This document shows, piece by piece, positions 15,092 through 49,710 of a stretch of DNA of 59,672 nt. The translations under genes and the position numbers were made by a program. Numbering within the stretch: position 1 is the stretch's first letter; every line of letters begins with the position of its first letter. Origin of the DNA: Archangium sp. (GTDB lineage Bacteria > Myxococcota > Myxococcia > Myxococcales > Myxococcaceae); NCBI GenBank assembly GCA_030695565.1, contig JAUYRZ010000071.1, positions 1 to 59,672 of the forward strand, in the 5' to 3' direction. Under the pieces are notes generated by a model. The model was given only the letters and a program-made list of their open reading frames with translations, searched no databases and was not told where the DNA came from.

Positions 15092-15104
15092 AAGGAAGAA
15101 GCAC

Positions 15105-15527: not shown

Positions 15528-15536
15528 CCCGAGGCC

Positions 15537-15653
15537 ATGAAGAAACCGGACGATGACAAGCAGAACGGGCTTTCGCCCCTGACGATCGCGGTGGCGCTGG
15601 GCGCCAGTGCGGGCGTCTGGCTCGTCATCGACGTGCTCCGGAGGATCTTCTGA
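15537..15653 (+). CDS. 38-residue single-helix membrane peptide in gsp operon
   Basis: A short ORF between gspG and gspH: ATG 15537, TGA 15651-15653, the last base shared with the gspH start (TGATG). The peptide has a highly charged N-terminus (M-K-K-P-D-D-D-K-Q), one helix (L-T-I-A-V-A-L-G-A-S-A-G-V-W-L-V-I, about 15-31) and a basic end (L-R-R-I-F). The coupling to gspH and the complete use of the gap argue for a real gene. Topology resembles other tiny inner-membrane subunits; function unknown. Confidence 0.65.
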   Translation: MKKPDDDKQNGLSPLTIAVALGASAGVWLVIDVLRRIF

Positions 15654-16333
15654 TGCGCAGGCGCGGCTTGACGTTGATCGAGATCGTGGTCGCGTTGAGC
15701 ATCGTCACCCTGCTCTTCGCGGGCGTGGTGATGAGCGTGGGCGCGTTGACCGGCGCCAAGGCCAAGGAATCATCGACCGAGCTCGCTGGCACCATTCGCT
15801 CGCTCTACGACACGGCCGCGTTGTCGGGCCGCACCTGCCGGTTGGTGTTCACCATGCCGCCGGAGAAAGACGACGAGACGCCGGTCACCTGGCGCGCGGA
15901 GTGCGCGAAAGCGGGCGCCACCGCGTCGGCCAAACGCGAAGAGGAGCTCAAAGAGGCGCAGAAGCCGCTCAAGGACAAGGTGGCGGAAGACTCGCGCTTT
16001 CGCAGACTCGATTCCGACGACGCGCCCACCCTGCAGCAGCTGCAAGAGCAGGAGAAGAACCGCGTCGATGAGTCGGCGAAGTTCTCGGACTTCTCGAGTG
16101 AAGACGTGGTCGAGAAGACGTTGCCCTCGAGCGTGAAGATCGAAGTGTGGACCAGCAAGCAGCGGCAGGCGGCCAAGTCGGGCACGGCCTACCTGTACTT
16201 CTTTCCTCAGGGCTACACCGAGCGCGCGCAGGTCTGGGTCAAGCAGGGCGAGAACACCTGGACGCTCACCATCTCTCCGCTCACCGGGAAGACGAAGATC
16301 CACAACGAGGATCTCGAGGTTCCCCACTCATGA
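15653..16333 (+). CDS. gspH: Minor pseudopilin GspH
   Basis: A 226-residue minor pseudopilin. A very short leader M-R-R-R-G precedes the cleavage site before L-T-L-I-E, with Glu5 and a hydrophobic helix V-V-A-L-S-I-V-T-L-L-F-A. Residues about 85-150 form a charged, probably coiled-coil insertion (K-R-E-E-E-L-K-E-A-Q) not found in short GspH proteins. The C-terminus has strand-rich sequence ending in a typical I-S-P-L-T-G-K-T-K. The order after gspG and before gspI supports the assignment although GspH sequences are variable. Its stop overlaps the gspI start (ATGA). Confidence 0.88.
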   Translation: MRRRGLTLIEIVVALSIVTLLFAGVVMSVGALTGAKAKESSTELAGTIRSLYDTAALSGRTCRLVFTMPPEKDDETPVTWRAECAKAGATASAKREEELKEAQKPLKDKVAEDSRFRRLDSDDAPTLQQLQEQEKNRVDESAKFSDFSSEDVVEKTLPSSVKIEVWTSKQRQAAKSGTAYLYFFPQGYTERAQVWVKQGENTWTLTISPLTGKTKIHNEDLEVPHS

Positions 16334-17265
16334 GCACTGTCTTTCTGGGTCGCTCCTCGCTGTCTCGCGCGCCGTTCCGGCGCTACCGGCTCCGCTCCCG
16401 GGCCTTCACGTTGCTCGAGGTGGTCGTCGCGCTCGCCATTCTCGGCGTGTCGCTGGTGGCCGTACTCGACATCAACGCGAGCGCTGTCTACTCGCACGTG
16501 TACGCGAAGAAGCTGACCGTCGCGACGCTGCTGGCCCGCTCGAAGATGACGGACCTCGAGCAGAAGCTCTACGACGAGGCGCTCAGCCCCGACGACGACG
16601 AAGACGCGGGTGACTTCAGCGCCGAAGGCTGGCCCGGGTACAAGTGGCGCGCGAAGATCATCGTTCCCAAGACCAACGGGCTCACCCCGGAGCAGCTTTT
16701 CGGTGCGCTCTTCAACTTCCCCATGGGTGGTGAAGGCGAAGGAGGCATGCTCAGCAGTCTGTTCGGTGGTGCTTCGGGCAGCGCGGCCGCGGGTGCAGCA
16801 GGTGCGGCGGCGGCAGGTGGTGCTCCCGGTGCGGCAGGCGCAGGCGGGTTGCTCGGAGCGCTCGGGCCGATGGCCGGCATGGCGCAGCAGCAGTTCACCC
16901 AGATGGTCGACCAGCTTCAGAAGTCGGTGCGTGAAGTGCACCTCACGGTCACCTGGAAAGAAGGGAAGATCACCGAGAGCATCGACGTGGTGACCCACGT
17001 GGTCTCGCTCGGGCCCGGCAGCGATCGCAACGGCGGCGCCGCCGCGGCCGCGGGCAACCCCGGCGCACAGAACGGCAACCTGGTGCGCCCCGATGGCACT
17101 CCGGCCCGTGCGCCGCGGCAGGGCCCGAACGGCAACTTCGTCGACGACGACGGCACGCCCCTGATGCCGGGCGCGCAGAACCAGCTGAGCAGCCCGCAGT
17201 TCAACCAACTCAACATGCTCAACGGGCCCCGGCCCCAGTTGAACAACCAGATCATCAAACGATGA
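16330..17265 (+). CDS. gspI: Minor pseudopilin GspI, enlarged
   Basis: 311 residues from ATG 16330, chosen because of the ATGA overlap with gspH and because the leader follows directly. The leader is 28 residues and ends R-A before F-T-L-L-E-V-V, so position -1 is Ala instead of the usual Gly; prepilin peptidases tolerate this less often. The leader is encoded by a copy of the dispersed hairpin repeat (16342-16398). The mature protein is far longer than ordinary GspI (about 120 residues): a Gly/Ala-rich insert lies near 146-181 and the C-terminal 80 residues are Pro/Asn/Gly-rich. GspI starts the tip complex with GspJ and GspK. Confidence 0.9.
   Translation: MSTVFLGRSSLSRAPFRRYRLRSRAFTLLEVVVALAILGVSLVAVLDINASAVYSHVYAKKLTVATLLARSKMTDLEQKLYDEALSPDDDEDAGDFSAEGWPGYKWRAKIIVPKTNGLTPEQLFGALFNFPMGGEGEGGMLSSLFGGASGSAAAGAAGAAAAGGAPGAAGAGGLLGALGPMAGMAQQQFTQMVDQLQKSVREVHLTVTWKEGKITESIDVVTHVVSLGPGSDRNGGAAAAAGNPGAQNGNLVRPDGTPARAPRQGPNGNFVDDDGTPLMPGAQNQLSSPQFNQLNMLNGPRPQLNNQIIKR
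16342..16398 (+). repeat. Dispersed hairpin repeat, shortened copy inside gspI
   Basis: The sequence from TTTCTGGGTCGCT through TCTCGCGCGCCGTTCCGGCG to GGCTCCGCTCC matches the 87-base unit repeated at 27853-28157, with the central hairpin segment missing. It encodes the basic prepilin leader of GspI (S-L-S-R-A-P-F-R-R). Confidence 0.75.
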
Positions 17266-17936
17266 GCGCCCGACGCACAGGTTTCACTTTGATGGAGGTG
17301 GTCATCGCGATCGCGATCACCTCGTTCATCGGCGTCGTGATCGGCGTGAGCTTCAACACGACCATTCAGAACAAGGAGATCATCGAAGGCCAGGCCGAGC
17401 ACTACCGCATGCTGCGCACCGCGATGAACCGCATGGTGCGTGAGATCGGCGCCGCCTACGTGAGCGACCGCTACGATCCCAAGCGATACCGCGACGCCTA
17501 CGACCGCCCCAGCAACTTCGTGGGCAAACGCGACACGCTGCTGTTCACCACCCTCTCGCACCAGCGGCTCTACAGCGACGCGAAGGAATCGGATCAGATG
17601 GTGGTCGAGTACTCCGTGAAGACCTCGCCCGATCAGAAGGCGCGCGGGCGGACGGATCTCGTGCGGCGCGAGAAGGTGCTGCTCGAGGAGCGCATGGAGC
17701 GCGGTGGCACCGAAGACTCCCTCTTCGAAGGCGCCAAGAAGATCGAGTTCCAGTACTGGAACAGCGAACGCAAGCAGTGGGAAGACGAGTGGGACACGCG
17801 GCGCGCTGAGCGAAAGAGCATCTTGCCCACGCGCGTGAAGATCACGATGACCGCGGTCGACGAGAGCGGCAAAGAGGTCAAGTACACCACCCAGACCCGC
17901 ATCATGTTGAACACCGAGTTCCCGAGGTACGAATGA
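17262..17936 (+). CDS. gspJ: Minor pseudopilin GspJ
   Basis: A 224-residue minor pseudopilin. The leader M-S-A-R-R-T-G is cleaved before F-T-L-M-E-V-V, with Glu at mature position 5. The globular part contains M-V-R-E-I-G-A-A-Y and a C-terminal L-P-T-R-V-K-I-T-M strand typical of GspJ. It joins GspI and GspK in the pseudopilus tip. The start overlaps the gspI stop by four bases (ATGA) and its end overlaps gspK in the same way, so the three tip subunits are translationally coupled. Confidence 0.93.
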   Translation: MSARRTGFTLMEVVIAIAITSFIGVVIGVSFNTTIQNKEIIEGQAEHYRMLRTAMNRMVREIGAAYVSDRYDPKRYRDAYDRPSNFVGKRDTLLFTTLSHQRLYSDAKESDQMVVEYSVKTSPDQKARGRTDLVRREKVLLEERMERGGTEDSLFEGAKKIEFQYWNSERKQWEDEWDTRRAERKSILPTRVKITMTAVDESGKEVKYTTQTRIMLNTEFPRYE

Positions 17937-19375
17937 GATCCGGGAAACTCAAGACCGTCTCCCCCCGCGCGCGGAAGAGCGAACGTGGCATCGCCATGCT
18001 GCTGGTGCTGGTCGGCATCGCCGTGCTCGCGCTGGTGGCCAACGAGGTCCGCTACAACTCGATCGTCGAGCTGCGCCTGGCCACCAACCAGCGTGACGAG
18101 CTGCGCGCGCACTACATGGCCAAGTCGGGCATTGCGATGTCGCGGCTCATGCTGCGCTTCCAGAAGCAGCTCGACGCGATCCAGATCCCCAACCTGGGCG
18201 GCATGCTCGCGGGAATCATGGGCGGAGGCGGCGCGGGTGGTGCAAACCCGCTGGCTGCCCTGCTCGGCGGTGCGGGTGGCGCGAACCCGCTCGCTGCGCT
18301 CGGTGGAGCGGGTGGCGCCGGCGCCCTGGCCGGTCTGCTCGGTGGTGCAGGTGGCGCCGGCGGTGCGGGTGCGGGCGGCGGCAGCATGTCGATTCAGCTG
18401 TGGAAGATGGCGAAGATCGACTGCCACATGCTCGCGCAGATGGTGCCCGAGTACGACGAGAAGGACGCGGTCATCAAGAAGTCGGGTATCAGCAAGAAGT
18501 TCGACTTCGACGACGAGAACCCCGAGCTGGGTAAGGCGCAGGCCACCCGCCGCTTCGGCGCCTTCACCGGTTGTTTCGACACGGTGATCACCGACGAAGA
18601 AGAGCGCATCAACTTGAACAAGCTCGACGCGCCGCAAGGCACCTCGATGCCGCTGCTGCTGATGCTCATCAGCACGCTCGGCGACAAGAAGTACGAGTTC
18701 CTCTTCGAGAAAGAAGACTCGAACCGGGTGAAGCTCACCCCGGTCGAGGTGATCACCAACTTCCGCGACTGGGTCGACGAAGACGAGACCGGCTCGACCT
18801 TGAACCTCTCCGGCTCGGGTGACCCCTTCTTGAAGGGCTTCTCCGACGAGAACGGTGGCTACGTGAAGTACGACCCTGCCTACCGCGCGAAGAACGCCCG
18901 CTTCGACAGCCTCGACGAGCTCTTCATGGTGCACGGCGTGAACGACCGGTTCATGGCGGCCTTCAAGGAGAAGCTCACGGTCTACCCGAACGTGAACTCG
19001 CGCCTGAACATCAACACCGACGACCCGGTGCTGCTCGAGGTGGCGATCCGCTCGGTGGCCGACCCGCTCCGCCCCGACCCCCGCATGGCCGACCCCATCT
19101 TCATGGACACGCTCATCAAGAAGATCCGCGCGGCGCGGGTGTTCGCGCTGTTCGGCATGAGCGTGAACGACTTCGTGATGATCGTCGCGGCCGCCGGCAT
19201 CCCCATCAACGCTTCGATTCAGAGCAACGTGCAGGGCAACCGTTTCATCGGCGACAAGAGCACCACCTACCGGGTCCGCGTGACCGGCAGCGCGGGTGAC
19301 GTCACGCGCACCATCACGGCGGTGGTGCGGCTCGACGACACGCTCGGCCGTCTCGTTTATTGGAGAGAGGAATAA
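17933..19375 (+). CDS. gspK: Pseudopilus tip protein GspK
   Basis: A 480-residue tip subunit. A 19-residue basic leader ends E-R-G before I-A-M-L-L-V-L-V; the Glu5 found in other pseudopilins is absent, as is normal for GspK. The first mature helix is followed by a very Gly/Ala-rich insert at about residues 89-153 (repeats of G-G-A-N-P-L-A-A-L), and then the alpha-domain with L-N-I-N-T-D-D-P-V-L-L (helix-hairpin-helix-like, near 360). Usual GspK proteins are about 300-330 residues, so this one is enlarged mainly by the insert. Confidence 0.94.
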   Translation: MRSGKLKTVSPRARKSERGIAMLLVLVGIAVLALVANEVRYNSIVELRLATNQRDELRAHYMAKSGIAMSRLMLRFQKQLDAIQIPNLGGMLAGIMGGGGAGGANPLAALLGGAGGANPLAALGGAGGAGALAGLLGGAGGAGGAGAGGGSMSIQLWKMAKIDCHMLAQMVPEYDEKDAVIKKSGISKKFDFDDENPELGKAQATRRFGAFTGCFDTVITDEEERINLNKLDAPQGTSMPLLLMLISTLGDKKYEFLFEKEDSNRVKLTPVEVITNFRDWVDEDETGSTLNLSGSGDPFLKGFSDENGGYVKYDPAYRAKNARFDSLDELFMVHGVNDRFMAAFKEKLTVYPNVNSRLNINTDDPVLLEVAIRSVADPLRPDPRMADPIFMDTLIKKIRAARVFALFGMSVNDFVMIVAAAGIPINASIQSNVQGNRFIGDKSTTYRVRVTGSAGDVTRTITAVVRLDDTLGRLVYWREE

Positions 19376-19378
19376 CCC

Positions 19379-20959
19379 ATGGCTCGCGTTCTCGGCCTCG
19401 ACTTAGGCAGCCACACCCTCAAGGGCGTCATCGTCGAGACGACCTACCGCGGGGCGACCGTGAAGAGTTACTTCACCGCCCCCGTTCCGCCCGACGGTGA
19501 ACGTCTCGACCGGCTCAAGGCCGCGCTGCCCCTGCTCCTCGAGCAAGGCGCAGGCCTGGTCGACTCGGTGGTCATCTCGTTGCCCGGCACCACGCTGGCC
19601 ACGCACCCCATCGCCCTGCCCTTCAGCGACCCCAAGAAGATCGAGTCGACGCTCGCCTTCGAAGTGGAGAGCCAGCTCCCCTACGATCTCGACGACGCGG
19701 TGTACGACCACCAGGTCGGCGTCTCCGACGAGAAGGGGGCGCAGCTCCTCGTGGGCGTGGCACGGAAGACCGAGCTCAAGCCCACCCTCGACGCGCTGAA
19801 GGAGGCGAAGCTCGACCCGCGCATCGTCACGCACGCGGGCCTCGTCTACCAGAACCTGATCGCCACCCTTCCCCCCAGCACCGTGGAGGGGGATGCGGCA
19901 GTGGCCGTGCTCGATCTCGGTCACGAACGCTGCAGCCTCGCCATCGGCAAACCCGGCGGCTCGGTGGAGTTCGCCCGCACCTTCGCCGGCGGCGGCTGGT
20001 CGCTCACCAAGGCGCTCTCCAACGAGTTCAAGATCAGCCTCGCCGACGCGCAGGCGTGGAAAGAAGAACACGGCGCGGTGGGCACCGAAGTGGTCGGCGC
20101 CGAAGCCGAGCGTGCGTCGGGCGCCTTCATGCGCGCGCTGCAGCCCGTGCTGCGCGACCTGCGCTCTTCGCTCAAGTCGTACAACGCGCGCTCGAATCAC
20201 CGCACCGTCGGGGTGTTGTTGCTGTGCGGCGGCACCTCGAAGTTGAAGGGCCTCGCCGAGCAGCTGGGCACGGATCTCAACCTGCCCACGCGGGCCCTCG
20301 AGCTCCCCGCGGAGACGCGTGAGGTCATCGGGGTGAACCGGCCCGAAGCGGCGCAGGCCTACGCGCTCGCGCTGCGAGGCACGGCCACCGGCACCAAGGC
20401 GCCCCGCTTCAACCTGCGGCGCGGTGAGTTCGCCTTCAAGAGCGACTTCGACTTCGCGTCCGACAAGCTCGGGCAGATCGCCGCGTTCGCCGTGGTGCTC
20501 TTCGTCTTGCTGATCGCCAGCGGCATCGTGCGCAACTCGGTGCTGGAGCGCCGGGAGAAGCAGGTCGACGCGGTGTTGTGCGACGTCACGCAACGCATTC
20601 TGGGCAAGTGCGAGAAGGACTTCACCATCGCCCTCTCGTTGCTCAAGGGCCAGGAGAGCCCGGCCGCCGGCATTCCCCCGCGCACCGCCGCGACGTTGCT
20701 GGCCGAGCTCACCTCGCACGTGCCGCCCGACATGAAGGTCACCTTCGACAAGGTGGTCATCGATCTCGATCGCATCTCGTTGAGCTCGGAGACCGAGAAC
20801 TCCAAGTCGTTGGAGGAGCTGATCGGCGCGCTCAAGACCTACAAGTGCTTCAAGGAAGTGAACGAGGGCCGCGTCGAGAAGAGCAAAGACGGCACCAAGG
20901 TCACCACCCGCCTCGACATTCAGGTCGAGTGCCCCACTGACGCGGAGCCCCAGGGATGA
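19379..20959 (+). CDS. gspL: Type II secretion protein GspL (PilM-like cytoplasmic domain)
   Basis: A 526-residue inner-membrane subunit that recruits GspE. The N-terminal 350 residues have the actin-like fold: G-L-D-L-G-S-H-T-L-K near 5 (phosphate-1 region), V-L-D-L-G-H-E near 176 and L-L-C-G-G-T-S-K-L near 282. These nucleotide-site motifs are better preserved than in enterobacterial GspL and recall PilM of type IV pili. One transmembrane helix (I-A-A-F-A-V-V-L-F-V-L-L-I-A-S, about 364-380) precedes a periplasmic ferredoxin-like domain like that of PilN/GspL. It starts three bases after gspK and overlaps gspM by four bases. Confidence 0.93.
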   Translation: MARVLGLDLGSHTLKGVIVETTYRGATVKSYFTAPVPPDGERLDRLKAALPLLLEQGAGLVDSVVISLPGTTLATHPIALPFSDPKKIESTLAFEVESQLPYDLDDAVYDHQVGVSDEKGAQLLVGVARKTELKPTLDALKEAKLDPRIVTHAGLVYQNLIATLPPSTVEGDAAVAVLDLGHERCSLAIGKPGGSVEFARTFAGGGWSLTKALSNEFKISLADAQAWKEEHGAVGTEVVGAEAERASGAFMRALQPVLRDLRSSLKSYNARSNHRTVGVLLLCGGTSKLKGLAEQLGTDLNLPTRALELPAETREVIGVNRPEAAQAYALALRGTATGTKAPRFNLRRGEFAFKSDFDFASDKLGQIAAFAVVLFVLLIASGIVRNSVLERREKQVDAVLCDVTQRILGKCEKDFTIALSLLKGQESPAAGIPPRTAATLLAELTSHVPPDMKVTFDKVVIDLDRISLSSETENSKSLEELIGALKTYKCFKEVNEGRVEKSKDGTKVTTRLDIQVECPTDAEPQG

Positions 20960-21510
20960 GCGCCATCACCGATCTGCAGACGACGATTCAGACCTCCTTC
21001 GCGGCGCTCTCCGCACGTGAGAAGCGCATGGTGGGCGGCGCGGGCCTGGCCGTGAGCGTGTTCGTCATCTTCATGGTGGTCTTCTCCTTCAACAGCAAAG
21101 CCGACGCGATCCGCAGGCGTACCGCCGACAAGATCATCAAGCTCGACGAGGTGCAGACGCTGGCCTCGGGCTACCGCGACGCCAAGGCCAAGCAGGACAT
21201 GCTCGAGGGGCAGCTGCGGGCTTCCAACGTGCGCCTGGTCAGCTACCTCGAAGAGAAGGCCAAGCCCGCGGGCATCGAGCTGCCGTCGATCAACCCCAAG
21301 GCCGACGTGCCGCTGGAGGGCTCGAAGATCGTGGAGAGCGCGGTCGAGGTCACCCTCACCGACGTGAAGCTGAACCGGCTGGTCGATTTCCTCACCGCGG
21401 TCGAAGCAGGCCCCGGCATCGTCAAAGTGAAGTACCTGCGCCTGGAGCCCCGGCCCGCGCAGGAGACCGTCACCGCGTGGCTGACCGTCGCCACCTACAA
21501 GTTGAAGTGA
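20956..21510 (+). CDS. gspM: Type II secretion protein GspM
   Basis: A 184-residue bitopic inner-membrane protein. A short cytoplasmic N-terminus with L-S-A-R-E-K-R-M-V precedes one helix (G-A-G-L-A-V-S-V-F-V-I-F-M-V-V-F-S-F, about 29-46). A coiled-coil stretch and a ferredoxin-like periplasmic domain (residues about 95-184) pair with GspL. Length, topology and position after gspL support the call. Its ATG overlaps the gspL stop (ATGA). Confidence 0.92.
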   Translation: MSAITDLQTTIQTSFAALSAREKRMVGGAGLAVSVFVIFMVVFSFNSKADAIRRRTADKIIKLDEVQTLASGYRDAKAKQDMLEGQLRASNVRLVSYLEEKAKPAGIELPSINPKADVPLEGSKIVESAVEVTLTDVKLNRLVDFLTAVEAGPGIVKVKYLRLEPRPAQETVTAWLTVATYKLK

Positions 21511-21520
21511 GTTGACCACC

Positions 21521-22468
21521 ATGGCCGAGAAGAAGCCCAGTCTCTGGAAACGCATCGTCGGCTACACGGCGTTCGCGATCTTCGCGCTCGTCGCGACGTT
21601 CTTCCTCACCTTCCCCTACGACACGATGCGCGAGACGCTGCGCAGCCAGGCCATGGCCCAGGGCTACGCGCTGAAGATCGGCGCGTTGGGCCCTGGGTTC
21701 TTCGCGGTGCGCGCGGGCAACGTCGAGATGATGAAGCTGCCGAACCTCGCCGTGGTTGACGAGAACACCCCGGCGCCGGTGCCCATGATGGTCGACTCGA
21801 TCTCCATCGGGCCTGCGCTGTTTCCCCCCGGGCTCTCGGTGAACATGAAGCTGCTGGGCGGCAGCATCAGCGGCCGGGTCACCGGGCTGACCGGCACGCG
21901 CCGGGTGCGGGTGGACATCGAAGATCTCGATCTCGCCAAGGGCAACCTGAAGGCTTCGTCGGGCATCGACATGTCGGGCGAAATCGAAGGCCACCTCGAC
22001 GTCACCATTCCCTTCATCGCCGGCGCGCCCAACACCCCCGCCGAGCCTGACCTCTCGCAGGCGTCGGGCACGATGAACCTGATCACCAGGGGCCTGGCCA
22101 TCAACGGCGGTACGGCGAACATCACCATCGCGCAGTTCGGCCCCGACCCCACCCCGGTGGATCTGCCGAAGATTCAGCTCGGTGAGATCAGCGGCAAGGT
22201 GAAGATCGACAAGGGCGCGGCGACCATCGAGGAGTTCAAGTCGAAGAGCGCCGATCTCGAGATCGGCATCAGCGGCACCCTCAAGCTGGCCAAGCGGCTC
22301 GAGTACTCGGAGCCTGCGATGGAGGTGCGCGTGAAGCCCGACCCCGAGTTCCAGAAGCGCCTGGGCCTGTTGGGCAGCGCGTTGTCGATGATCGGCGCGG
22401 ACCCGAAAGATCCCACCTGGCGCATGGGCCGGCTCACCGGCTACCTCGGCCGCCCGCAGTTCCGCTGA
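21521..22468 (+). CDS. gspN: Type II secretion protein GspN
   Basis: 315 residues from ATG 21521; a TTG at 21512 opens the frame slightly earlier but the ATG is the likelier start. One N-terminal helix (T-A-F-A-I-F-A-L-V-A-T-F-F-L-T-F, about 14-29) and a long periplasmic beta-rich region with repeated G-x-V/I-S-G patterns, as in the AsmA-like GspN family. GspN is non-essential in some systems and absent in others; in myxobacteria it closes the gsp cluster, as here. The next gene starts after two bases. Confidence 0.88.
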   Translation: MAEKKPSLWKRIVGYTAFAIFALVATFFLTFPYDTMRETLRSQAMAQGYALKIGALGPGFFAVRAGNVEMMKLPNLAVVDENTPAPVPMMVDSISIGPALFPPGLSVNMKLLGGSISGRVTGLTGTRRVRVDIEDLDLAKGNLKASSGIDMSGEIEGHLDVTIPFIAGAPNTPAEPDLSQASGTMNLITRGLAINGGTANITIAQFGPDPTPVDLPKIQLGEISGKVKIDKGAATIEEFKSKSADLEIGISGTLKLAKRLEYSEPAMEVRVKPDPEFQKRLGLLGSALSMIGADPKDPTWRMGRLTGYLGRPQFR

Positions 22469-22470
22469 CC

Positions 22471-23184
22471 ATGGCACCGCTGGTCGCCCTGGCGATCCTC
22501 GCGGCATCTCCCGTGGAGATGCGGCAGGACTCAGACCTCGAGTTCGCCGTCGACGAGGCCTTTCAACAAGACGGGGGCGTGCAGTACTTCTACGAGCTCG
22601 CTGAGCCGGGCCCTCAACCCTCGAGCGCGCTCACCCGTTTCCGCGCGATGGATCCCGAGTCGACCCTCGACGACCCGTACGTCGTGGTGATGAGCCGACT
22701 GGTCTACACGGTCGAGCGCGACATCTCGTTCTTCACCGAAGCGCGCGCCCGCGACGTGAGCTACTTGCAGCAGGTGGCGCCCGACATGGGCGTGCGCCTC
22801 GAGCCCGACGGCACCTTCCGGGTCAACCGGACTCCCAGCAATCGGTTCAAGCTGACCTGGTTCGAGGAGCCGGTCGCCGGCAAAGCCCCGGCGATGACGG
22901 CCTTCTTCGGGCTGCTCCCTCAAGGAGCCAAGCCCGCCTCCGTGGTGCTGCAGAAGAACTTCGACTTTGCGCGCGTGATGGGTTGGCGCACGGGTGAACG
23001 GGCGATCACCTACACCGCCCACTTCGCGATCGCCCCGGGCCGAACCCGGGTGGTCGTCTGCTCCATGAGCCTGATGCATCACCTGCCCCCCTTCTTCCTC
23101 GGAGGCCGCGGCCGCGTCTTCCGCGAATCGGTCGACGGCGCGGCGTCGTTGATTGGTCAGCTGAGGGCGTGGACAGAAGAGTGA
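22471..23184 (+). CDS. Hypothetical exported protein downstream of gspN
   Basis: A 237-residue protein with a short hydrophobic N-terminus (L-V-A-L-A-I-L-A-A-S) that may be a weak signal peptide. The rest is soluble: V-Y-T-V-E-R-D-I-S-F-F-T-E-A-R and a late M-S-L-M-H-H-L-P-P-F-F. It has no recognised motif. The start lies two bases after gspN, so it is probably the last gene of the gsp transcript and may be an accessory factor or a substrate. A short hairpin follows the stop. Confidence 0.75.
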   Translation: MAPLVALAILAASPVEMRQDSDLEFAVDEAFQQDGGVQYFYELAEPGPQPSSALTRFRAMDPESTLDDPYVVVMSRLVYTVERDISFFTEARARDVSYLQQVAPDMGVRLEPDGTFRVNRTPSNRFKLTWFEEPVAGKAPAMTAFFGLLPQGAKPASVVLQKNFDFARVMGWRTGERAITYTAHFAIAPGRTRVVVCSMSLMHHLPPFFLGGRGRVFRESVDGAASLIGQLRAWTEE

Positions 23185-23198
23185 GACGCGGCGGCCCA

Positions 23199-23214
23199 CA
23201 CATCCGCTGATGTG
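23199..23214. terminator. Hairpin after the gsp operon
   Basis: CACATC-CGCT-GATGTG is a perfect six-base stem with a four-base loop, 15 bases after the last stop codon of the operon. No T-run follows, so it is a weak terminator candidate or a transcript-end stabiliser. Confidence 0.35.
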
Positions 23215-23297
23215 AGGTGGGTTGCAGTGACCCAGCGCGCGCGCGTCGAATCTCAGCTACTGATTTTCACACGTCCTGCTTCCTGGAGCCCCCCTAC

Positions 23298-25772
23298 ATG
23301 CGCCGAACCGCTTTCCCGAAGTTGGCCGTTGCAGCCTGTCTTTCTCTCGCGGTCCTCGCAGGCTGCGGCGGCACCATCACGCCCCCGCCCGTGCCGAGCT
23401 GCAGCGACGGCATCAGCAATGGCACCGAGTCAGACGTCGATTGCGGCGGCAGCTGCGGCATCTGCGCCACCGGCAAGGCGTGTGCGGCGGGCGCCGACTG
23501 TGCGACGGGCGTCTGCACTGGCAGCACCTGCCGGGCTGCCGACTGCGTTGACGGCATCAACAACGGCGCAGAGACCGACGTCGACTGCGGCGGAACGTGC
23601 GCGAAGTGCGAGAGCCCGAAGTCCTGCGCGACGGCCTCCGACTGCGCCAGCGGCGTGTGCACGGCGAAGACCTGCAGCGCCTCGCTCTGCACCGACGGCG
23701 TGAAGAACGGCACCGAGACCGACCTCGACTGCGGCGGCAGCTGCGCCACCAAGTGCGCGGCCGGAGCGGCGTGCGCGCTTCCCACCGACTGCACCAGCGA
23801 CGTATGCGACTCGGGCGCCTGCCGCGCGTCGTCGTGCGCCGACACCGTCAAGAATGGCAGCGAGACCGCCATCGACTGCGGCGGCAGCTGCAGCACGAAG
23901 TGCGCGAACGCGGCCGGGTGCCTGCTGGGCGGCGACTGCGCCAGCGGCGTCTGCGACTCCACGACCTTCACCTGCAGCGCGGCGCTCTGCACCGACGCCG
24001 TGAAGAACGGAGACGAGACCGACATCGACTGCGGTGGCAGCTGCACCACCCGGTGCGCGAACGCGGCCACGTGCACGAACGCGGCGGACTGTGTGAGCGG
24101 CGTGTGCAACGGCACCTGCTCCACGCCGGCCTGCGTGGACAGGGTGAAGAACGGCGCCGAAACCGACGTGGACTGCGGCGGCAGCTGCGCCACGAAGTGC
24201 GCCGACCTGAAGGCCTGCGCTGCCCCGAGCGACTGCACCAGCAGCGTCTGCAGCTCAGGCTCGTGCGCGGTGCCCAGCTGCACCGACACCCTGCGGAACG
24301 GCTCGGAGACGGACGTCGATTGCGGCGGCAGCTGCACCCCGTGTGCGACGGGGGGCGTGTGCGCGATGGGCACCGACTGCACCAGCGGCGTGTGCAACGC
24401 GAACGCATGCGCGGCGCCCAGCTGTACCGACACGCGCAAGAACGGTTCGGAGACCGATGTCGACTGCGGCGGCAGCTGCACCGACTGCATCGCCACCCGG
24501 GCCTGTCTCAGCGGGGCGGACTGCGTCAGCCAGGTCTGCACCAACGCCATCTGCCAGGCCGAGAGCTGCACCGACGCCGTGAAGAACGGCACCGAGACCG
24601 ACCGCGATTGTGGTGGCACTTGCGCGGCGTGCGCCGACGGCCTGGTCTGCCAGGGCACCGCCGATTGCCGCAGCCGGGTCTGCACCAACAGCACCTGCCA
24701 GCCCTCGAGCTGCACCGATGGAACCCAGAACGGCACCGAGACCGATCAGGATTGTGGCGGCACCTGCGCTCCCTGCGCCGATGCCTCAGATTGCCAGGTG
24801 ACGGCCGACTGCCTGAGCCGGGTCTGCACCAACAACCTCTGCCAGGCCCCTTCCTGCACGGACACCGTGAAGAACGGCGCCGAGAGCGACCTCGACTGCG
24901 GTGGTGGCACCTGCCCCGTGTGCGCCGACACGTTGGTCTGCCGCGGCGGCGCTGACTGCGCGAGCGGCGTGTGCGTCGGTGGCACCTGCCGCGCGCCCAG
25001 CTGCTCAGATGTGGTGAAGAACGGCGTCGAGACCGATGTGGACTGCGGTGGTGCCTGCTCGCCGTGCGCGACCACGAAGCGGTGCCTGGCGGGCGCCGAT
25101 TGCCAGAGCAGCGTGTGCTCCGGGGGAACCTGCCAGGCCCCCAGCTGCTTCGACCTGGTGAAGAACGCCGTCGAGACGGACATCGACTGTGGTGGTGGAA
25201 CCTGCGCGCGGTGCAACGACACGAAGCGGTGCCTGGGTAGCTCCGACTGCAGCAGCGGGGTGTGCACCGCGGGCCTGTGCCGCGCCCCCGCCTGCAACGA
25301 CGGCGTGAAGAACGGCACCGAATCCGACCGGGACTGCGGTGGAAGCTGCGCGCCGTGCGCCAATGGACTGGCCTGCAATGCAGGTGCGGACTGCACCAGC
25401 GGCAGCTGCACGAACAACGTGTGCGCGACTCCCCTGCTCAACGGGTGCAGCATCGACACGGCGACAGACCTCACCGGCGGCGCAGGGGTGGTGATCACCT
25501 TCGCGAACGGCAACCTCACCTACGCCCCCAAGTGCATCAAGGTCAGCGCGGGGACCCCAGTCACCTTCAACGGCAACTTCGCCAGCCACCCGATGATCGG
25601 CGGCACGGTGAGCGGCGGCGTAGCGACCCCGGCGTCGAGCGGCCCCTTCATTCCGGTCACGAACGCCGGCACCAGCAAGACCTTCACGATGAGCGCCCCG
25701 GGCAACTTCCCGTATTACTGCCAGCCCCACGCCACCCTCGGGATGAACGCGGCGATCTTCGTCGTGCCCTGA
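23298..25772 (+). CDS. Lipoprotein with 14 Cys-rich repeats and C-terminal cupredoxin domain
   Basis: 824 residues from ATG 23298; the frame is open upstream, but this start gives a clean signal peptide with lipobox L-A-G-C near residue 23. Residues about 35-715 hold 14 tandem repeats of roughly 48 residues with the pattern C-x-D-x-x-x-N-G-x-E-T-D-x-D-C-G-G-x-C-x-x-C, then D-C-x-S-x-V-C-x-x-x-x-C; each repeat carries about eight Cys, probably paired. The last 105 residues look like a plastocyanin-type cupredoxin: H in F-A-S-H-P, then [11 protein letters not shown], giving His, Cys, His, Met copper ligands. A surface stalk carrying an electron-transfer or copper head is the likely design. Confidence 0.9.
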
Positions 25773-25787
25773 CTCGAACAGCCATGC

Positions 25788-25816
25788 TGAGGCCGCTTGC
25801 ATTCGCGGCGGCCTCA
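25788..25816. terminator. Hairpin after the Cys-rich lipoprotein gene
   Basis: TGAGGCCGC at 25788-25796 and GCGGCCTCA at 25808-25816 form a perfect nine-base stem with an 11-base loop, between the stop at 25772 and the next start at 25831. There is no T-run after it, so it may stall or stabilise the transcript end instead of terminating it. Confidence 0.45.
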
Positions 25817-25830
25817 CGCTTGGAGGGCCC

Positions 25831-26298
25831 ATGCGCTTTGGGCTCTTCGTGCTGGCATTGGTGGCTGTTCTCGCAGGATCAGCCTGCGGGCGTCGGAGGC
25901 CCGCTCCGCTTCTTCTGGCGGCGCCCCTGGCCATCATCTCCCCCAACGACGGCACGGGCCGCTGTGTCGAGCGGTTGCTCGCCCGATCCCGCTACACCGG
26001 GTACATCGAGCAGACCGTCGACAAGGAGATGGGCTTCTTCCGCGTGATGGCGCGAAACACCTACGCCGTGGTCGAGCGCAACAAACGCGGCCCGGTGGTG
26101 CCCAGGGGCAAGCTGCCGGCCGACGTGAAGTTCTACAACGTGCAGTGCACCAGCGACGAGCAGGCGGTCATCACGCCGATGAACGAGACCGGCGCGCTCG
26201 ACGATCGTTTCGTGATGGATGCCCGGCAGCACGACGAGCTGCTCCGGTACGGCGGCTCGATCGGCGTCATCCCGGCGGGCCTGCCTGCGATGCGCTGA
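25831..26298 (+). CDS. Hypothetical small exported protein or lipoprotein
   Basis: A 155-residue protein with a signal peptide (L-F-V-L-A-L-V-A-V-L-A-G-S-A-C). The Cys could be a lipid-attachment site but the -3 residue is Gly, so the lipobox is poor. The remainder (residues 35-155) is soluble, with C-V-E-R-L-L-A-R-S-R-Y and M-G-F-F-R-V-M-A-R-N; a motif of two Cys may form a disulfide. R-Y-T-G-Y-I-E-Q-T-V-D-K-E-M-G-F-F loosely recalls the V-Y-T-V-E-R-D-I-S-F-F segment of the protein at 22471, so the two may be distant relatives. Function unknown. Confidence 0.75.
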   Translation: MRFGLFVLALVAVLAGSACGRRRPAPLLLAAPLAIISPNDGTGRCVERLLARSRYTGYIEQTVDKEMGFFRVMARNTYAVVERNKRGPVVPRGKLPADVKFYNVQCTSDEQAVITPMNETGALDDRFVMDARQHDELLRYGGSIGVIPAGLPAMR

Positions 26299-26961
26299 CT
26301 ACGGGGCTGGCATCGGTCCGTCGTCGGACTGCTCCAGCACGACCACCGACAGCTCGGTGCTCGCCTTCTGCTTCTTCGCGAGCACCCGCACCACCCGGCC
26401 CTCCTTCACGAAGGTGCCGGGCTCGCGCTCCTTCCAGCCGCCAGAGGGCAACACCGAGCGGTAGAAGTCGATCACCTCTTCCTGCGTGGCCTTCGCGGTG
26501 AACGAGACGGCGGTGGCCAACTCGACGTTGAAGGTGGTGGGCGACTTCGCGCCGGGGAACACCGGCAACCTGCCGCCCTGCGCCTGCTTGCGATTCTTCA
26601 GGTCGGCCGCGCCGAGCACCAGGGTGGTGGTGCCGTCGGCTTCGGGCCAGCCGTAGACCAGGAAGCTCACCATGCGCACGTCGTCGAGCGCGACCACCCG
26701 GGGCAGCTTGAGGCCGGTGATGCGGCCCATCTTCGGGGGAATGAAGTAGCCCGCTTCGGCAAACCGTGCGGCGTAGTGGAGCAGCAGGCGATCGAGCTCC
26801 CACGTCGACCTGGCGAGGAACACCGCCATCGGCAAGCCGCCGCCTTCGAGCTGTTTTCCCACGGGCACCAGCTGCACCTGGCCTGGCACGTCCCACGAGA
26901 AGGGGGCTGGGCCTGCATCGGGCGCAGCGCTCAACACCGCGGCTGCGACCAGCACGAACAT
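26299..26961 (-). CDS. Hypothetical exported protein, last gene of Tad-like operon
   Basis: 220 residues from ATG 26961, which overlaps the stop of the preceding TadE-like gene by one base (TGATG); an ATG at 26970 is possible but would overlap by ten. A signal peptide (F-V-L-V-A-A-A-V-L-S-A-A) is followed by a globular domain. The segment A-T-Q-E-E-V-I-D-F-Y-R-S-V-L-P-S-G-G-W near 165 is a pattern I recall from small secreted domains in which a paired helix and strand unit is repeated. Its position suggests a role with the pilin-like proteins. It converges on the gene at 25831 with no spacing. Confidence 0.8.
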   Translation of the reverse strand: MFVLVAAAVLSAAPDAGPAPFSWDVPGQVQLVPVGKQLEGGGLPMAVFLARSTWELDRLLLHYAARFAEAGYFIPPKMGRITGLKLPRVVALDDVRMVSFLVYGWPEADGTTTLVLGAADLKNRKQAQGGRLPVFPGAKSPTTFNVELATAVSFTAKATQEEVIDFYRSVLPSGGWKEREPGTFVKEGRVVRVLAKKQKASTELSVVVLEQSDDGPMPAP

Positions 26962-28163
26962 CACGGGCAATTCTTACCGAGGAAACATTTGGGCCGGGTC
27001 ATGTTGGGCACCATGCCTGCGCCCGCGCCACCCGTGATGAAGGTCGGAGTGCCTTCACCTCCGACGTAGTCGAGCATTCCCGACTCCACGCCTGAGTAAC
27101 TGAAGTGAAACTCGTCGGCGTTGGTGGGCGCGCTGCCGGCGAACCGGGTCGCGAAGGCGGCGCCTGCGCCACCACCCCCGCCCCACATGCGGCTGATCAT
27201 CCCGCGGTACGCGGAGGAGTTGCAGGACAGCTTGCACTCTTCAGTTTCTTCATTCGCGAGGCCCCAGTCGTTGGTGAGGAGCGCCAGGGAGCCTCGGCAC
27301 GCGCCGTTGACGGGCAGCCCCATGCCGCAGATGGGAATGGGCGTGGTGCGCACGATCTTGTGCTCGAAGAAGCCGCCATTGTCGTTCTGCAGGAAGCGGC
27401 GCGGAATGTTGATCGCCTTCACCTTCGCAGAGGCCGTGCAGTTGAGCCCACCTTCCGGGCGCATCACCACCGCAGCCGTCGTGGAGGGTAGAAAACGCAA
27501 CGAGTCTTCTTGCTCGCAGCGCACGTCGACGCCGCTGCCTTCGGTCAACGCGCGGCCGATCACCGCGCCGCCGTTGGTGTTGCTCAGGCCGTTGAAGTCA
27601 GCGAACCGGCTCTGCGCCATCGGCCCCACGCCCGTGACGGAATCGAGCGTGCGGCGAAACGGAACAACGTTGGTGCCACCGTTGAGTTCACGCGATTGCA
27701 CGCGGCGGCCCGAGGCATCCCAGATGGCGTAGGTCTGCGCGTCTTGCACCTTGAGCGCGAGCTGCGCGTACTCGGCCATGTGAATGCCGATCAGCAGTAC
27801 ACCCACGAAGACGATGCTCCCGAGCGCCAACTCCACGGTTGCCTGGCCTGACTTTCTGGTCGCTTCGCCTCGGCCAGTCTTCCGCTGCGCTCCAGACTGT
27901 CTCGCGCGCCGTTCCGGCGCATGCGGCTCCGCTCCGGCTTTTCTGGTCGCTGCGCCTCGGCCAGTCTTCCGCTGCGCTCCAGACTGTCTCGCGCGCCGTT
28001 CCGGCGCATACGGCTCCGCTCCGGCTTTTCTGGTCGCTTCGCCTCGGCCAGTCTTCCGCTGCGCTCCAGACTGTCTCGCGCGCCGTTCCGGCGCATGCGG
28101 CTCCGCTCCGGCTTTTCTGGTCGCTTCGCCTCGGCCAGTCTTCCGCTGCGCTCCGGTTTTCAT
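26961..28163 (-). CDS. TadE-like pilin-type protein with repeat-derived N-terminus
   Basis: 400 residues. ATG 28163 overlaps the upstream stop by one base (TGATG). Residues 1-100 are a basic tandem repeat of 29 residues (R-R-A-R-Q-S-G-A-Q-R-K-T-G-R-G-E-A-T-R-K) encoded by 3.5 copies of a dispersed hairpin repeat. Then comes the TadE signature G-Q-A-T-V-E-L-A-L and a helix (G-S-I-V-F-V-G-V-L-L-I-G-I). The exported part has V-Q-D-A-Q-T-Y-A-I-W-D-A-S-G-R and several Cys. TadE-like pseudopilins belong to Flp/Tad pilus systems, but no Tad motor or secretin gene is near. A normal TadE has only about ten residues before its G-Q-A-x-V-E motif. Confidence 0.85.
   Translation of the reverse strand: MKTGAQRKTGRGEATRKAGAEPHAPERRARQSGAQRKTGRGEATRKAGAEPYAPERRARQSGAQRKTGRGAATRKAGAEPHAPERRARQSGAQRKTGRGEATRKSGQATVELALGSIVFVGVLLIGIHMAEYAQLALKVQDAQTYAIWDASGRRVQSRELNGGTNVVPFRRTLDSVTGVGPMAQSRFADFNGLSNTNGGAVIGRALTEGSGVDVRCEQEDSLRFLPSTTAAVVMRPEGGLNCTASAKVKAINIPRRFLQNDNGGFFEHKIVRTTPIPICGMGLPVNGACRGSLALLTNDWGLANEETEECKLSCNSSAYRGMISRMWGGGGGAGAAFATRFAGSAPTNADEFHFSYSGVESGMLDYVGGEGTPTFITGGAGAGMVPNMTRPKCFLGKNCP
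27853..28157 (-). repeat. Tandem 87-base hairpin repeat, about 3.5 copies, in coding sequence
   Basis: Copies begin at 27853, 27940, 28027 and 28114 (the last is partial). Each unit contains short inverted repeats: CTGG/CCAG, CAGTCT/AGACTG and GCGCCG-TTC-CGGCGC. 87 is a multiple of three, so the array stays in frame as 29-residue protein repeats. Related single copies are at 16342, 30517 and 49609. There are no unique spacers. Confidence 0.9.
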
Positions 28164-29764
28164 CAGTGAAGCCCCTCGAAGCCGACGTTGCGAAGCGCCT
28201 GATACGCGTCGCGCTGAAAACGGAACTCGGTGGCTGAGAGCGCGCGGTTCATGTCGCGCGGCGAGGCGTCGACATCGATGGGCGCCAACGTCGCGCGCCA
28301 GAACGGGTTGAGCAGGTTGGGGAACTCCTCCCAGTGATCTCGCCGGTGGTAGTACGCGATGCCCGTGGCCACCGCGCCCTGGCTCGAGATGTTCATGCCG
28401 TTGCCGGTCCTGGTGTGAAGCTCGCGGCCACGGCCATCCCACTCGCTGGCGGGGCCGGTGGCACTGAAGGGGAACTTGAAGTGCAGCTCCCAGGGGAACT
28501 TCTTCATCGTGAGATCGCGCTGGAGCGCCACGATCACCTTGGGCTGCCCCCACGCATCGGCCTCCGAGTTGTTCGGCTGAAAGCCAATCGTGCGGACCCA
28601 GACTGAGGGGCACAGCGGCGTGCAGTCGCCCATCGTGTGGTGCACTTCGGGGTCGGGCTCCATCGCGTCGCCGCTCTGGCCGTATTCGTGTTGGTCGCCT
28701 TGATCGATCAGGTGGGTCGACCGCACGTGCGCGAGCACCGGCTGCGTTCGGGTGCACGAGCCCGCGTTGATCGTCATGGTGCCATGATCATCGCCCCACG
28801 CCTCGGTGCCCGCCGGCACGGTGCCGTGCGTCTGGCTGGCGGCCCAATAGGCGCTGCCTGACTTGCCGCCGAAGACGATCGACAGCTCGCTGTAGTTGCC
28901 GGCGATCTGCGTGATCCCTGCGAGGGTCTTGCCGGGCATCTGCGAGCGGCCCGTGACGAAGGCGTTGCCGCGCGAGCCCATCGCCGCCAGCAGCATGTTC
29001 TCATTCCAGGTGGCGCGCAGGCACAAGCCCGCGCCGCCCGGGGCTTCACCCGTGAGCTGACCGGTGGTGTCACCGCCCGAGTCGCAATCGAGCTCGGCCA
29101 TGGTGATGCCCTGCGGCGTGTTCGGCTCGGCGCCCCGGCCGGTGTCGACCACCGAGATGTCGTCTTGCCGCGAGAGCGCGACGATCTGCCGGGTCAGCTG
29201 CTGCGTGGTGATCTGCCGGTAGAACTCGCCGCGCAGGTTGCCGGGGTTGGTGGTGAACATGCTGTCAGACAGTTCACCGCGCAGGCCGGCGATCATTCCC
29301 TGGATGGCCTTGCTCTCTTCACCGGCCGCCTGGTCCATCGACTTCCACTCGGCGGGGGTGAACTCGGTGCCCATGTACGTGCCGACCGCGTCGCGGAAGT
29401 CGATCAGCTGCCGGCGGGCACGCAGGTTCTGGGGCCGTCGCATGCAGGGCTCGTTGAGCAGGTCGGCCGCGCCCTTGCGACTGTTGTGGCCCAGCGCGCG
29501 CGCGTAACCGGTCCACGAGATGAGCGACTGATCAGCCGCCTGCGCCACCCAGTAGGAGACCTCGAGCCGGTTCACCGCGGCCATGTTGTTGAACGTGCGC
29601 GCGGTCATCACCGCGTTGGAGAACGCCGCCGCGTCAGCGAGGTTCTGCAGCTCGTGCTTCTGCCGGATGCGCAGACCCAGGCCGATGGTCATGGTCACCA
29701 TCAAGGCGAGGAACAACATGGTGAGAGAGAGCAGAACGAGGTTCTGACCGCGACGGGACCTCAT
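28163..29764 (-). CDS. TadG-like pilus-associated protein
   Basis: A 533-residue protein with the Tad-type N-terminus R-R-G-Q-N-L-V-L-L-S-L, a helix (T-M-L-F-L-A-L-M-V-T-M-T-I-G-L-G-L) and the motif H-E-L-Q-N-L-A-D-A-A-A-F-S-N-A, which matches the TadE/TadG N-terminal family. The large exported part (about 35-533) has no von Willebrand motif that I can see and contains scattered Cys. ATGA overlap with the gene upstream and TGATG overlap with the one downstream make it the second gene of a four-gene operon. It may be a tip or anchoring subunit. Confidence 0.82.
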   Translation of the reverse strand: MRSRRGQNLVLLSLTMLFLALMVTMTIGLGLRIRQKHELQNLADAAAFSNAVMTARTFNNMAAVNRLEVSYWVAQAADQSLISWTGYARALGHNSRKGAADLLNEPCMRRPQNLRARRQLIDFRDAVGTYMGTEFTPAEWKSMDQAAGEESKAIQGMIAGLRGELSDSMFTTNPGNLRGEFYRQITTQQLTRQIVALSRQDDISVVDTGRGAEPNTPQGITMAELDCDSGGDTTGQLTGEAPGGAGLCLRATWNENMLLAAMGSRGNAFVTGRSQMPGKTLAGITQIAGNYSELSIVFGGKSGSAYWAASQTHGTVPAGTEAWGDDHGTMTINAGSCTRTQPVLAHVRSTHLIDQGDQHEYGQSGDAMEPDPEVHHTMGDCTPLCPSVWVRTIGFQPNNSEADAWGQPKVIVALQRDLTMKKFPWELHFKFPFSATGPASEWDGRGRELHTRTGNGMNISSQGAVATGIAYYHRRDHWEEFPNLLNPFWRATLAPIDVDASPRDMNRALSATEFRFQRDAYQALRNVGFEGLH

Positions 29765-30543
29765 GGCGTGGGCTCACAATTCTGGCGACGGAAGAGCGCG
29801 CGCCGCGGAGGGGTCATCATGCGCATCGCCGCGCTGCCCACGACGGGGAACACGTATTCCTCCTCGTTGAAGCGGCGGAGAAACTCGGAGCGAAACCCGT
29901 TGAGCGAGTTCGCGCCCGCCTGTGTCCAGCGCGCCTGCTGCGTGGGGATGAGCGGGTTGGTCTTGGTGTAGTCGCCCATGCCGAAGTACGCCCGGTACAT
30001 GGTGGCCATCACCCAGTTCGCGAAGGGGATGCGCAGCGGGTACCAGTACACGACGCGCAGCTCGAGCCGGTACCCCTCCGTGTCGGGATCATCGAAGTCG
30101 TCTTCGGCGCGCGCTCGCACCTGGGCCACGCGCGGCGAAGGGCGGAAGATCCACACCACCGCGCTCTTGTGCGGGTCGTCGGCGTTCGCGTCGTACTGGT
30201 TGTCGAAGGGCTTGTTGCGGGTGCGCAGCGCGAAGGCGGTGGCGAGCTTTTCGGCCGGCGTGTTGCCGCCCGTCGCTTCGCCCAAGTACGAGGTGAAACT
30301 CGGCAGCAGCGCCGCGATGGCCGCGTGCGTCATCGCGGTGCAGTCGCCGTGGCGCACCACGCCCACGCGCACCGCGGAGTAGGCCGCGTGTTCGGCGAAC
30401 AGGCGGCCCTGCATCAGCATGAAGAGCTGGAGCGTACCGAGCACCATGAAGAGAGCCAGCGGCATGGTCAGCGCGGTTTCGACGGCGGCTTGGCCGGATT
30501 CACGGGTTGGCCCCTCTTTCTGGGTCGCTTCGCCTCGGCGCAT
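29761..30543 (-). CDS. TadE-like pilin-type protein
   Basis: 260 residues from ATG 30543. The signature E-S-G-Q-A-A-V-E-T-A-L lies near residue 17, followed by a helix (M-P-L-A-L-F-M-V-L-G-T-L-Q-L-F-M-L-M) and A-E-H-A-A-Y-S-A-V-R-V-G-V, typical of TadE. The first 15 residues (M-R-R-G-E-A-T-Q-K-E-G) are encoded by part of the dispersed hairpin repeat at 30517-30573, so the repeat supplies the start codon. The frame extends further upstream but without homology. First gene of the Tad-like operon, divergent from the sigma54 activator. Confidence 0.83.
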   Translation of the reverse strand: MRRGEATQKEGPTRESGQAAVETALTMPLALFMVLGTLQLFMLMQGRLFAEHAAYSAVRVGVVRHGDCTAMTHAAIAALLPSFTSYLGEATGGNTPAEKLATAFALRTRNKPFDNQYDANADDPHKSAVVWIFRPSPRVAQVRARAEDDFDDPDTEGYRLELRVVYWYPLRIPFANWVMATMYRAYFGMGDYTKTNPLIPTQQARWTQAGANSLNGFRSEFLRRFNEEEYVFPVVGSAAMRMMTPPRRALFRRQNCEPTP

Positions 30544-30573
30544 CTGCCGCTTTGCTGCAGCCGCGCTCGCCCG
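30517..30573. repeat. Dispersed hairpin repeat at the start of the TadE-like gene
   Basis: TTTCTGGGTCGCTTCGCCTC at 30517-30536, then diverged sequence CCGCTTTGCTGCAG and CGCTCGCCCG, align with the 87-base unit at 27853. It covers the start codon and leader of the TadE-like gene and part of the divergent promoter region. Confidence 0.65.
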
Positions 30574-30726
30574 TGGTGGAGAGGGAGCGCATCGTTCAGG
30601 TGGCCCGGGGCGCTGCACGGGGCGGAGTGTCTGCTTTCCACCCTCAGACCTCCATCGGTCAGCATGCCGGTGTGTCTCGAGTGTGGGCCTTGGTGCGCCC
30701 GTGAGCGTCATGGTAGGTCGCCGCGC

Positions 30727-32361
<1,635 letters not shown>

Positions 32362-49608: not shown

Positions 49609-49698
49609 CTTTCCTGGTCGCGTCGCCTTGGCCCAGCTCTCCGCTTCGCTCCGATGCTGGCTCGTCCGGCGTTCCGCCAGACCGGCGCCGCTCCGGTA
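49609..49698. repeat. Dispersed hairpin repeat, intergenic copy
   Basis: The segment CTTTCCTGGTCGC...CTCTCCGCTTCGCTCC...CCGGCGTTCCGCC...GCCGCTCCGG is a diverged copy of the 87-base unit at 27853. It lies between the small gene at 49354-49566 and the acyltransferase start at 49711, so it can act as promoter-proximal or untranslated sequence. Confidence 0.75.
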
Positions 49699-49710
49699 AG
49701 GTTGTGGTTC

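Follow-up and report, generated by a model that had tools for sequence, protein, structure and literature searches.

The TadE-like pilin gene near the middle of a 59,672-nucleotide stretch of Archangium sp. (contig JAUYRZ010000071.1, hereafter the window) opens with a tandem repeat of an 87-base unit. How did a DNA repeat come to code the N-terminus of a pilin, and does the unit occur elsewhere? A first-pass annotation made from the sequence proposed that a dispersed hairpin repeat had been captured as protein and had then grown. We give a probability of roughly 0.75 to the reading that a dispersed and probably mobile MIRU-like element of about 86–87 bp, of which the array is one site, was captured in the leader of this gene. 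The genome holding the window is called G000 and the five other genomes of the genus G001–G005; all are draft assemblies, in which repeat numbers can be wrong.

The array and the gene that carries it

The features of the locus are as follows.

26961..28163, minus strand: TadE-like pilin gene with the repeat in its leader; orthologues in all five other genomes of the genus
27846..28163, minus strand: predicted leader of the TadE-like protein, 105 residues and the cleavage glycine, nearly all coded by the array; cleavage predicted from G/XXXXE
27853..28157, plus strand (orientation of the element, antisense to the gene): tandem array of the element, 3.5 units of 87 bp, with full units at 27853–27939, 27940–28026 and 28027–28113 and a partial unit from 28114
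28161..28165, minus strand: TGATG, the upstream stop overlapping the TadE-like start
28163..29764, minus strand: upstream gene, Tad/TadG-like (Pfam PF13400, 23.5 bits, cut-off 22.3)

Tandem Repeats Finder (TRF) returned a period of 87 over 27853–28154, with 3.5 copies, 98% matches, 0% indels and a score of 590, and the minus-strand frame is open across the array, from MKTGAQRKTGRGEATRKAGAEPHAPERRARQS... as far as RKSGQATVEL, much as first described. Since the array is mostly spanned by ORFs in at least five frames, the open TadE-like frame alone counts for little. The long basic N-terminus of 29-residue repeats, put at about 100 residues, comprises 105 residues before the glycine, with 8 K/R and 3 D/E per unit by manual count. 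A translation start downstream of the array had been raised as an objection; in the sequence as read, the first in-frame start codon (ATG, GTG or TTG) within or past the array is the GTG of ATVEL. An 18-base core of the unit has seven matches in the window at up to three mismatches, four of them inside the array (0.36 expected; none of 100 shuffles reaches seven), and a 35-base core has three (0.00 expected). A match to Presenilin over the repeat (Pfam, E 0.013, under the cut-off) was dismissed as composition.

The protein is named TadE-like because its match to Pfam PF07811, over residues 1–37 after the array, lies under the cut-off (E 0.12; 13.0 bits, cut-off 22.9); both neighbouring genes pass their Pfam cut-offs (TadE and Tad, respectively). 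TadV is said, in work by Tomich and colleagues from 2006, to mature TadE and TadF in another species. PMC10191384 describes type IV prepilins as having a hydrophilic leader whose last residue is G or A, followed by a hydrophobic stretch in which position 5 is E; all of these features are present here (RKSG/QATVELALGSIVFVGVLLIGI), and the motif, given as G/XXXXE in the description in PMC12075869, follows directly after the array. Its G, Q, A, T and E are invariant in 11 of 11 aligned relatives. Because the array ends ahead of this site, it is probably a leader that is removed and missing from the mature pilin, which would explain how so large an insertion is tolerated. A low-confidence AlphaFold model of the precursor (mean pLDDT 48.2) has no secondary structure in residues 1–102 and a helix over 103–152.

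Leader length in the relatives

Counted from the ATG to the residue before the G of GQAT, the leader has 105 residues in G000, 36 in G001 and 49 in G003, corresponding to 3.5, 1 and 1.5 units. G002, G004 and G005 hold no unit, and their leaders have 2, 4 and 3 residues. A scan of named genomes for the locus gave 12 loci (Archangium, Myxococcaceae and Myxococcales MAGs), five of which are G001–G005; the seven further relatives have leaders of 3–8 residues, their possible starts, some TTG or GTG, being read by eye. The expectation that a normal TadE N-terminus is very short and that relatives would lack the repeat is thus borne out, and among the orthologues looked at none has a long N-terminus free of the DNA repeat. 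A sequence of the form GGGG-C(T/C)(T/C)CACTG stands ahead of the ATG in all six genomes of the genus.

For G000 and G001 the identity of the unit is 94.3%, above that of the mature TadE DNA (78.6%) and the upstream DNA (85.7%). Between G000 and G003 the unit is 77.9% identical, close to its flanks (72.2% and 79.7%); in G003 both arms of the central palindrome have changed and are still palindromic, and the peptide is altered. From this retention of the palindrome while the peptide changes, it seems that the nucleic acid rather than the peptide is kept, and the G003 leader may also record the arrival of a different subtype of the element.

These comparisons bear on the view that the long basic peptide is selected for itself, with the copy number tuning it, for example in secretion, in membrane or nucleic-acid contact or in the ratio of minor pilins. 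The frame is open in three species at the same site, the peptide is strongly basic and the G000/G001 unit is the best conserved of the three stretches compared. Against this, three of the six genomes of the genus manage with no such insert, the G003 peptide differs with its DNA palindrome kept, and inserts of the same kind lie in SelB and in non-coding junctions, as described below. We regard selection for the peptide as unlikely.

The three genomes with the insert, G000, G001 and G003, are 81–82% identical to one another in protein and 74–77% identical to G002 and G004. A five-protein tree of the six genomes gave support values of 36, 46 and 76, so that a single gain in the group of three is consistent with the identities and the monophyly of that group is weakly supported.

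A dispersed family of palindromic elements

With one unit as DNA query, G000 (8.5 Mb in 134 contigs) yielded 51 matches at E <= 10, of which 37 lie below 1e-3 and several stand in tandem at 86–87 bp. A covariance model of about 86–90 bp was built from an alignment of 22 G000 copies, those of the window included, and found 72 matches in G000 at E <= 0.01; the word dispersed had, if anything, understated the case. At E <= 1e-4 there are 83 matches in G001 and 135 in G003, with up to 150 candidates scored per genome in all of these model counts. At one locus of G000 (L142, C132:1-20000) at least eight copies stand within 10 kb. The element was found in 3 of 96 genomes of the family, in 3 of 193 genomes of a phylum set with the model and in 3 of 195 with the DNA query, in each case the same three of the six genomes of the genus, which are also the three with an insert in the TadE-like leader; weak copies may have escaped these scans, in which 45, 22 and 4 candidates were scored per genome, respectively. 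In the Rfam search of window positions 15000–31000 no family reached its gathering threshold.

The alternative of an ordinary minisatellite, in which coding DNA slipped locally and other sites are alike by chance or base composition, accords with the tandem arrangement and with copy-number differences in whole units. It is refuted by the dispersed copies, which reach E-values of 2.6e-15 outside the array with the DNA query and 6.3e-25 genome-wide with the model (itself built with these copies), and further opposed by two-sided covariation and by empty sites in relatives; we give it next to no weight.

The unit had first been described as three short inverted repeats. A plain inverted-repeat search of 27700–28300 found no inverted arms within one unit. 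The alignment of the 22 copies yields a fold of 20 pairs in five short helices with support from covariation: 11 of the 20 pairs have changed on both sides; the 32 cells concerned compare with 7.2 in shuffles, none of 500 shuffles reaching that number, and the signal is lost when the partners are slid, with the proviso that the fold was taken from the alignment used for the test and is somewhat favoured by it. The window unit folds no better than its shuffles (z 0.66 and 0.08 on the two strands), and the same holds for a further copy, L006 (z 0.65 and 0.35). What the covariation reflects, in our reading, is that a palindromic nucleic acid has been conserved; it is no proof of a stable RNA.

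Short, palindromic, GC-rich and dispersed, with many copies intergenic, the family resembles a REP-type element moved by a REP-associated tyrosine transposase. That origin is weakened by the distribution of the transposase domain, PF01797 (Y1_Tnp), for which a single match was obtained in G003 and none in the other two genomes, G000 and G001, and it appears distinctly improbable.

Copies lie at contig ends, or within about 80 bases of them, in G003 (C1, C8, C15, C23, C59 and C66) and in G001 (C188, C236 and C1032); arrays thus seem to break the assemblies, and true copy numbers may be higher. A short-read assembly might accordingly be suspected of having multiplied or misplaced the unit. The independent assemblies of G001 and G003, however, agree on where the insert lies, each with flanks of its own, and we consider an artefact of this kind highly improbable as an account of the array, while the objection may apply to its exact copy number.

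Positions of the copies and empty sites

A rough sequence rule assigns 38 of the 72 matches of G000 to subfamily A and 28 to subfamily B; the other six are the units that make up the TadE and SelB arrays. The motif [AGT]TGA, which occurs in 1144 of 16570 ten-base windows (6.9%) as background, is found at the 3' end of 28 of the 38 A copies as against 1 of the 28 B copies, and at the 5' end of 15 A copies as against no B copy; 10 A copies lack it at the 3' end and 23 at the 5' end. Genes next to the A copies were accepted as supported on codon usage, for which 33 long ORFs of the window served as training set. A supported co-directed gene follows 23 A copies and starts at the end of the element in 16 of them; a supported gene precedes 17 copies, and in 8 of these it stops at the start of the element. 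A start codon on the left and an NTGA on the right are both present in 20 A copies, inner copies of tandems being counted singly; in 15 of these the two lie exactly 86 nt apart, and the copy is spanned by a 29-codon ORF that shares 4 nt with the next start. The left start of the 15 is [AG]TGA in ten and ATGC or ATGT in five. The family is dispersed and palindromic, as proposed, and is more than a dispersed hairpin, being associated with start and stop codons in the manner of MIRUs.

Empty counterparts of such sites occur in the relatives. At the start of EngB an empty [AG]TGA is present in G001, G002 and G004, and the site is filled in G000 and G003; at the start of PurN it is empty in G004 and G005 and holds two units in G000; at the start of UppP it is empty in G001, G003 and G004 and filled in G000. 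These sites came from one joined query and were picked for conserved genes, so that they are no random sample. The PurM-PurN junction of G001 and G003 holds other sequence, which in G001 (L157) includes a different inverted repeat with arms of about 29 bases starting AAAAGGGGACAGGCTGCTTTTCGGAGTCG. The CysD matches in relatives, at 46% identity, were not used for empty sites, and the UppP locus of G002, which starts 54 bases before the motif, was not counted.

Subfamily B is intergenic, unlike A (L100, L102, L111, L112, L114, L116 and other G000 loci), and several of its copies lie inside C-rich/G-rich intergenic palindromes of the kind ccctctccccctc ... ggggagagggg. One G000 copy (L090, C78:57545-57634) carries start codons at both of its ends, of which the left lies on the other strand, as between divergent genes.

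Tandem periods

The 26 stretches in which the period was examined are arrays noted in G000, G001 and G003, genomes that hold at least these. Where [AG]TGA is kept at the inner junctions the TRF period is 86 in 11 of 11 arrays; of the 19 junction starts in them, 14 open an 86-nt ORF, and 17 open a frame that ends in [AG]TGA within 70–200 nt. Arrays inside proteins step by 87, both in TadE and in SelB and in each case in G000 and G003. Five arrays near gene starts (L082, L180, L181, L182 and L185) lack an inner TGA and also have period 87; they may be read as longer coupled ORFs or N-terminal extensions. There are exceptions, L186 and L190 having period 86 and no TGA, both at contig ends, and L184 having period 85. 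Intergenic B arrays have periods of 85 (L105), 84 (L110) and 83 (L187), which gives a range of 83–87 for the family; TRF returned no result for L191.

Four tandem units precede a gene starting MTKTYAVGDTFTL at L083 (G000 C132:7200-7538), units of 85 and 78 nt among them. The ORF of the last, 78-nt unit is in frame with the next gene, and the locus is possibly a halfway stage between coupling and N-terminal extension.

This pattern of periods is what the keeping of a coupling or of a reading frame would give; 86 may also simply be the natural length of the unit. Since arrays occur at many sites that are not in frame, the family as a whole is prone to grow in tandem, and growth does not follow from capture as coding sequence. 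Of the proposal of capture and then growth, the difference in copy number between species is borne out.

In-frame copies in other proteins

Further element copies of the window, and the genes that hold them, are these.

16330..17265, plus strand: GspI-like pseudopilin gene (N_methyl above cut-off; gspI TIGR01707 at 27.8 bits, short of its cut-off of 44.35)
16342..16404, plus strand: shortened element copy, in frame, in the GspI-like leader (34.7 bits)
29761..30618, minus strand: second TadE-like gene (Pfam TadE, 34.9 bits, cut-off 22.9)
30517..30599, plus strand: diverged, subfamily B-like element copy in the leader of the second TadE-like gene (33.5 bits)
49610..49700, plus strand: fourth element site of the window (64.9 bits), with no NTGA at its ends

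The copy of the element family in the TadE-like leader, a nucleic-acid repeat that has become coding sequence as was first proposed, is in frame and not unique. A prepilin-motif scan over the 72 G000 matches returned the TadE-like, second TadE-like and GspI-like genes; frames at C87 and C114 were dismissed, being unsupported as genes. The second TadE-like gene starts either at GTG 30618, where the relatives have GTG, or at ATG 30543 inside the element. Its copy is missing in all four relatives with an orthologue (G002 has a distant match only), and the GspI-like copy is missing in all five relatives of the genus. Three pilin-like captures in one window are a small number, and the window was chosen for one of them. 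The window also holds an 851-aa ORF (23217–25772, plus strand) in which a Cys-rich repeat of about 48 residues recurs many times (TRF periods near 144–153 over 23634–25360) and whose C-terminus looks, by eye, cupredoxin-like.

Outside the pilins, SelB has a site at residue 437 that is free of any insert in G004 and holds two 29-codon units (58 residues) in G000 and three (87 residues) in G003. SelB was also matched in G002, the insert being compared in the three genomes named. The protein was identified by TIGR00475, above cut-off in G000 and G004, and by SelB Pfam domains in G000, G003 and G004. Just past the SelB stop in G000 (L115, C41) there is a peptide like a reversed, decayed copy of the element (CRERQAGRESEAGWPQ), followed by a response-regulator-like protein.

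How the leader may have arisen

The main subfamily usually sits where the stop of one gene overlaps the start of the next ([AG]TGA). At such a site its ORF of 29 codons runs from the left end of the element and closes in a TGA overlapping the start of the following gene; with translation handed on at -4 nt, an insertion would do little harm, and a tandem copy of 86 nt (2 mod 3) would set up the same coupling geometry again. A copy that lacks this geometry could persist if its length is a multiple of three and it lies in an unimportant part of a protein. In the TadE-like gene the reversed element stands just after the ATG, in a leader that is normally 2–4 residues long and is expected to be cut after the glycine by prepilin peptidase. 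A basic, repeat-coded peptide would suit a cytoplasmic leader; the repeat stops just before the cleavage motif and recurs in steps of 87 nt (29 codons). The TadE array runs in reverse and does not end in an NTGA; that it came in at a stop/start overlap is proposed from its position.

More broadly, the family may be a second, independently evolved, coupling-preserving mobile element from outside the mycobacteria, with an 86-nt fold that recreates the stop/start overlap so that tandem copies stay coupled, and with shifts of length to multiples of three leading to cleavable leaders or loop insertions in proteins, prepilin leaders acting as a sink for captures; we hold the chances of this to be even.

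Related genomes show the element side by side in its empty, coupled, tandem and in-frame stages, a route that can be traced from non-coding mobile DNA to protein. MIRU-like behaviour would be extended to the Myxococcota, it can now be tested whether stop/start overlaps are targets for insertion or only tolerate it, and prepilin leaders, being removed, suggest themselves as permissive entry points for new coding sequence.

Comparison with known systems

The mycobacterial interspersed repetitive units, or MIRUs, were reportedly described by Supply and co-workers in 1997. The present family appears to work like them, a likeness in habit to elements known here by description. In the accounts given, MIRUs are units of 40–100 bp at 41 places in M. 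tuberculosis H37Rv (PMC2734929) that are apparently mobile, their insertions falling at start codons and bringing an ORF coupled at -4 nt (PMC12548453). As far as these accounts go, both families consist of scattered units in that size range, often in tandem and in variable number (here between species), both occupy start-codon sites with an inner ORF coupled at -4 nt (here in subfamily A in the main), and for both the empty junctions in relatives are a few bases long. MIRU-type coupling does not extend to subfamily B (1 of 28) or to the TadE array. Unlike MIRUs as there described, the present family comes from another phylum, has an intergenic subfamily and has reversed and in-frame copies inside proteins. 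Among the matches listed from the open-licence literature, no title concerned a MIRU-like element in myxobacteria, and none combined in-frame growth with cleavable leaders as landing places.

The Rickettsia palindromic elements (RPE), as described in PMC2229807, are likewise short palindromic repeats whose ORF is fused in frame in conserved proteins; in-frame insertion of this type is seen here in the TadE-like, second TadE-like and GspI-like genes and in SelB. RPE are given there as 105–146 bp with terminal inverted repeats, and differ from the present family, on that description, in its tandem steps of 29 codons, its sites in leaders and SelB and its stop/start coupling as the main habit. 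The enterobacterial RU-1, RU-2 and RU-3 are also small mobile repeats carrying ORFs within genes (PMC2759123); the stop/start-codon habit of the present family has no counterpart in that description of them.

The pilin-like genes themselves resemble, by description, the Tad minor pilins TadE, TadF and TadG and the myxobacterial KilL, KilM and KilN, as presented in PMC12075869. In both cases pilin-like genes adjoin one another and their products share a leader, the G/XXXXE motif and a hydrophobic helix. The TadE-like protein of the window stands apart from the pilins so described in having a leader of about 105 residues that is built of repeats.
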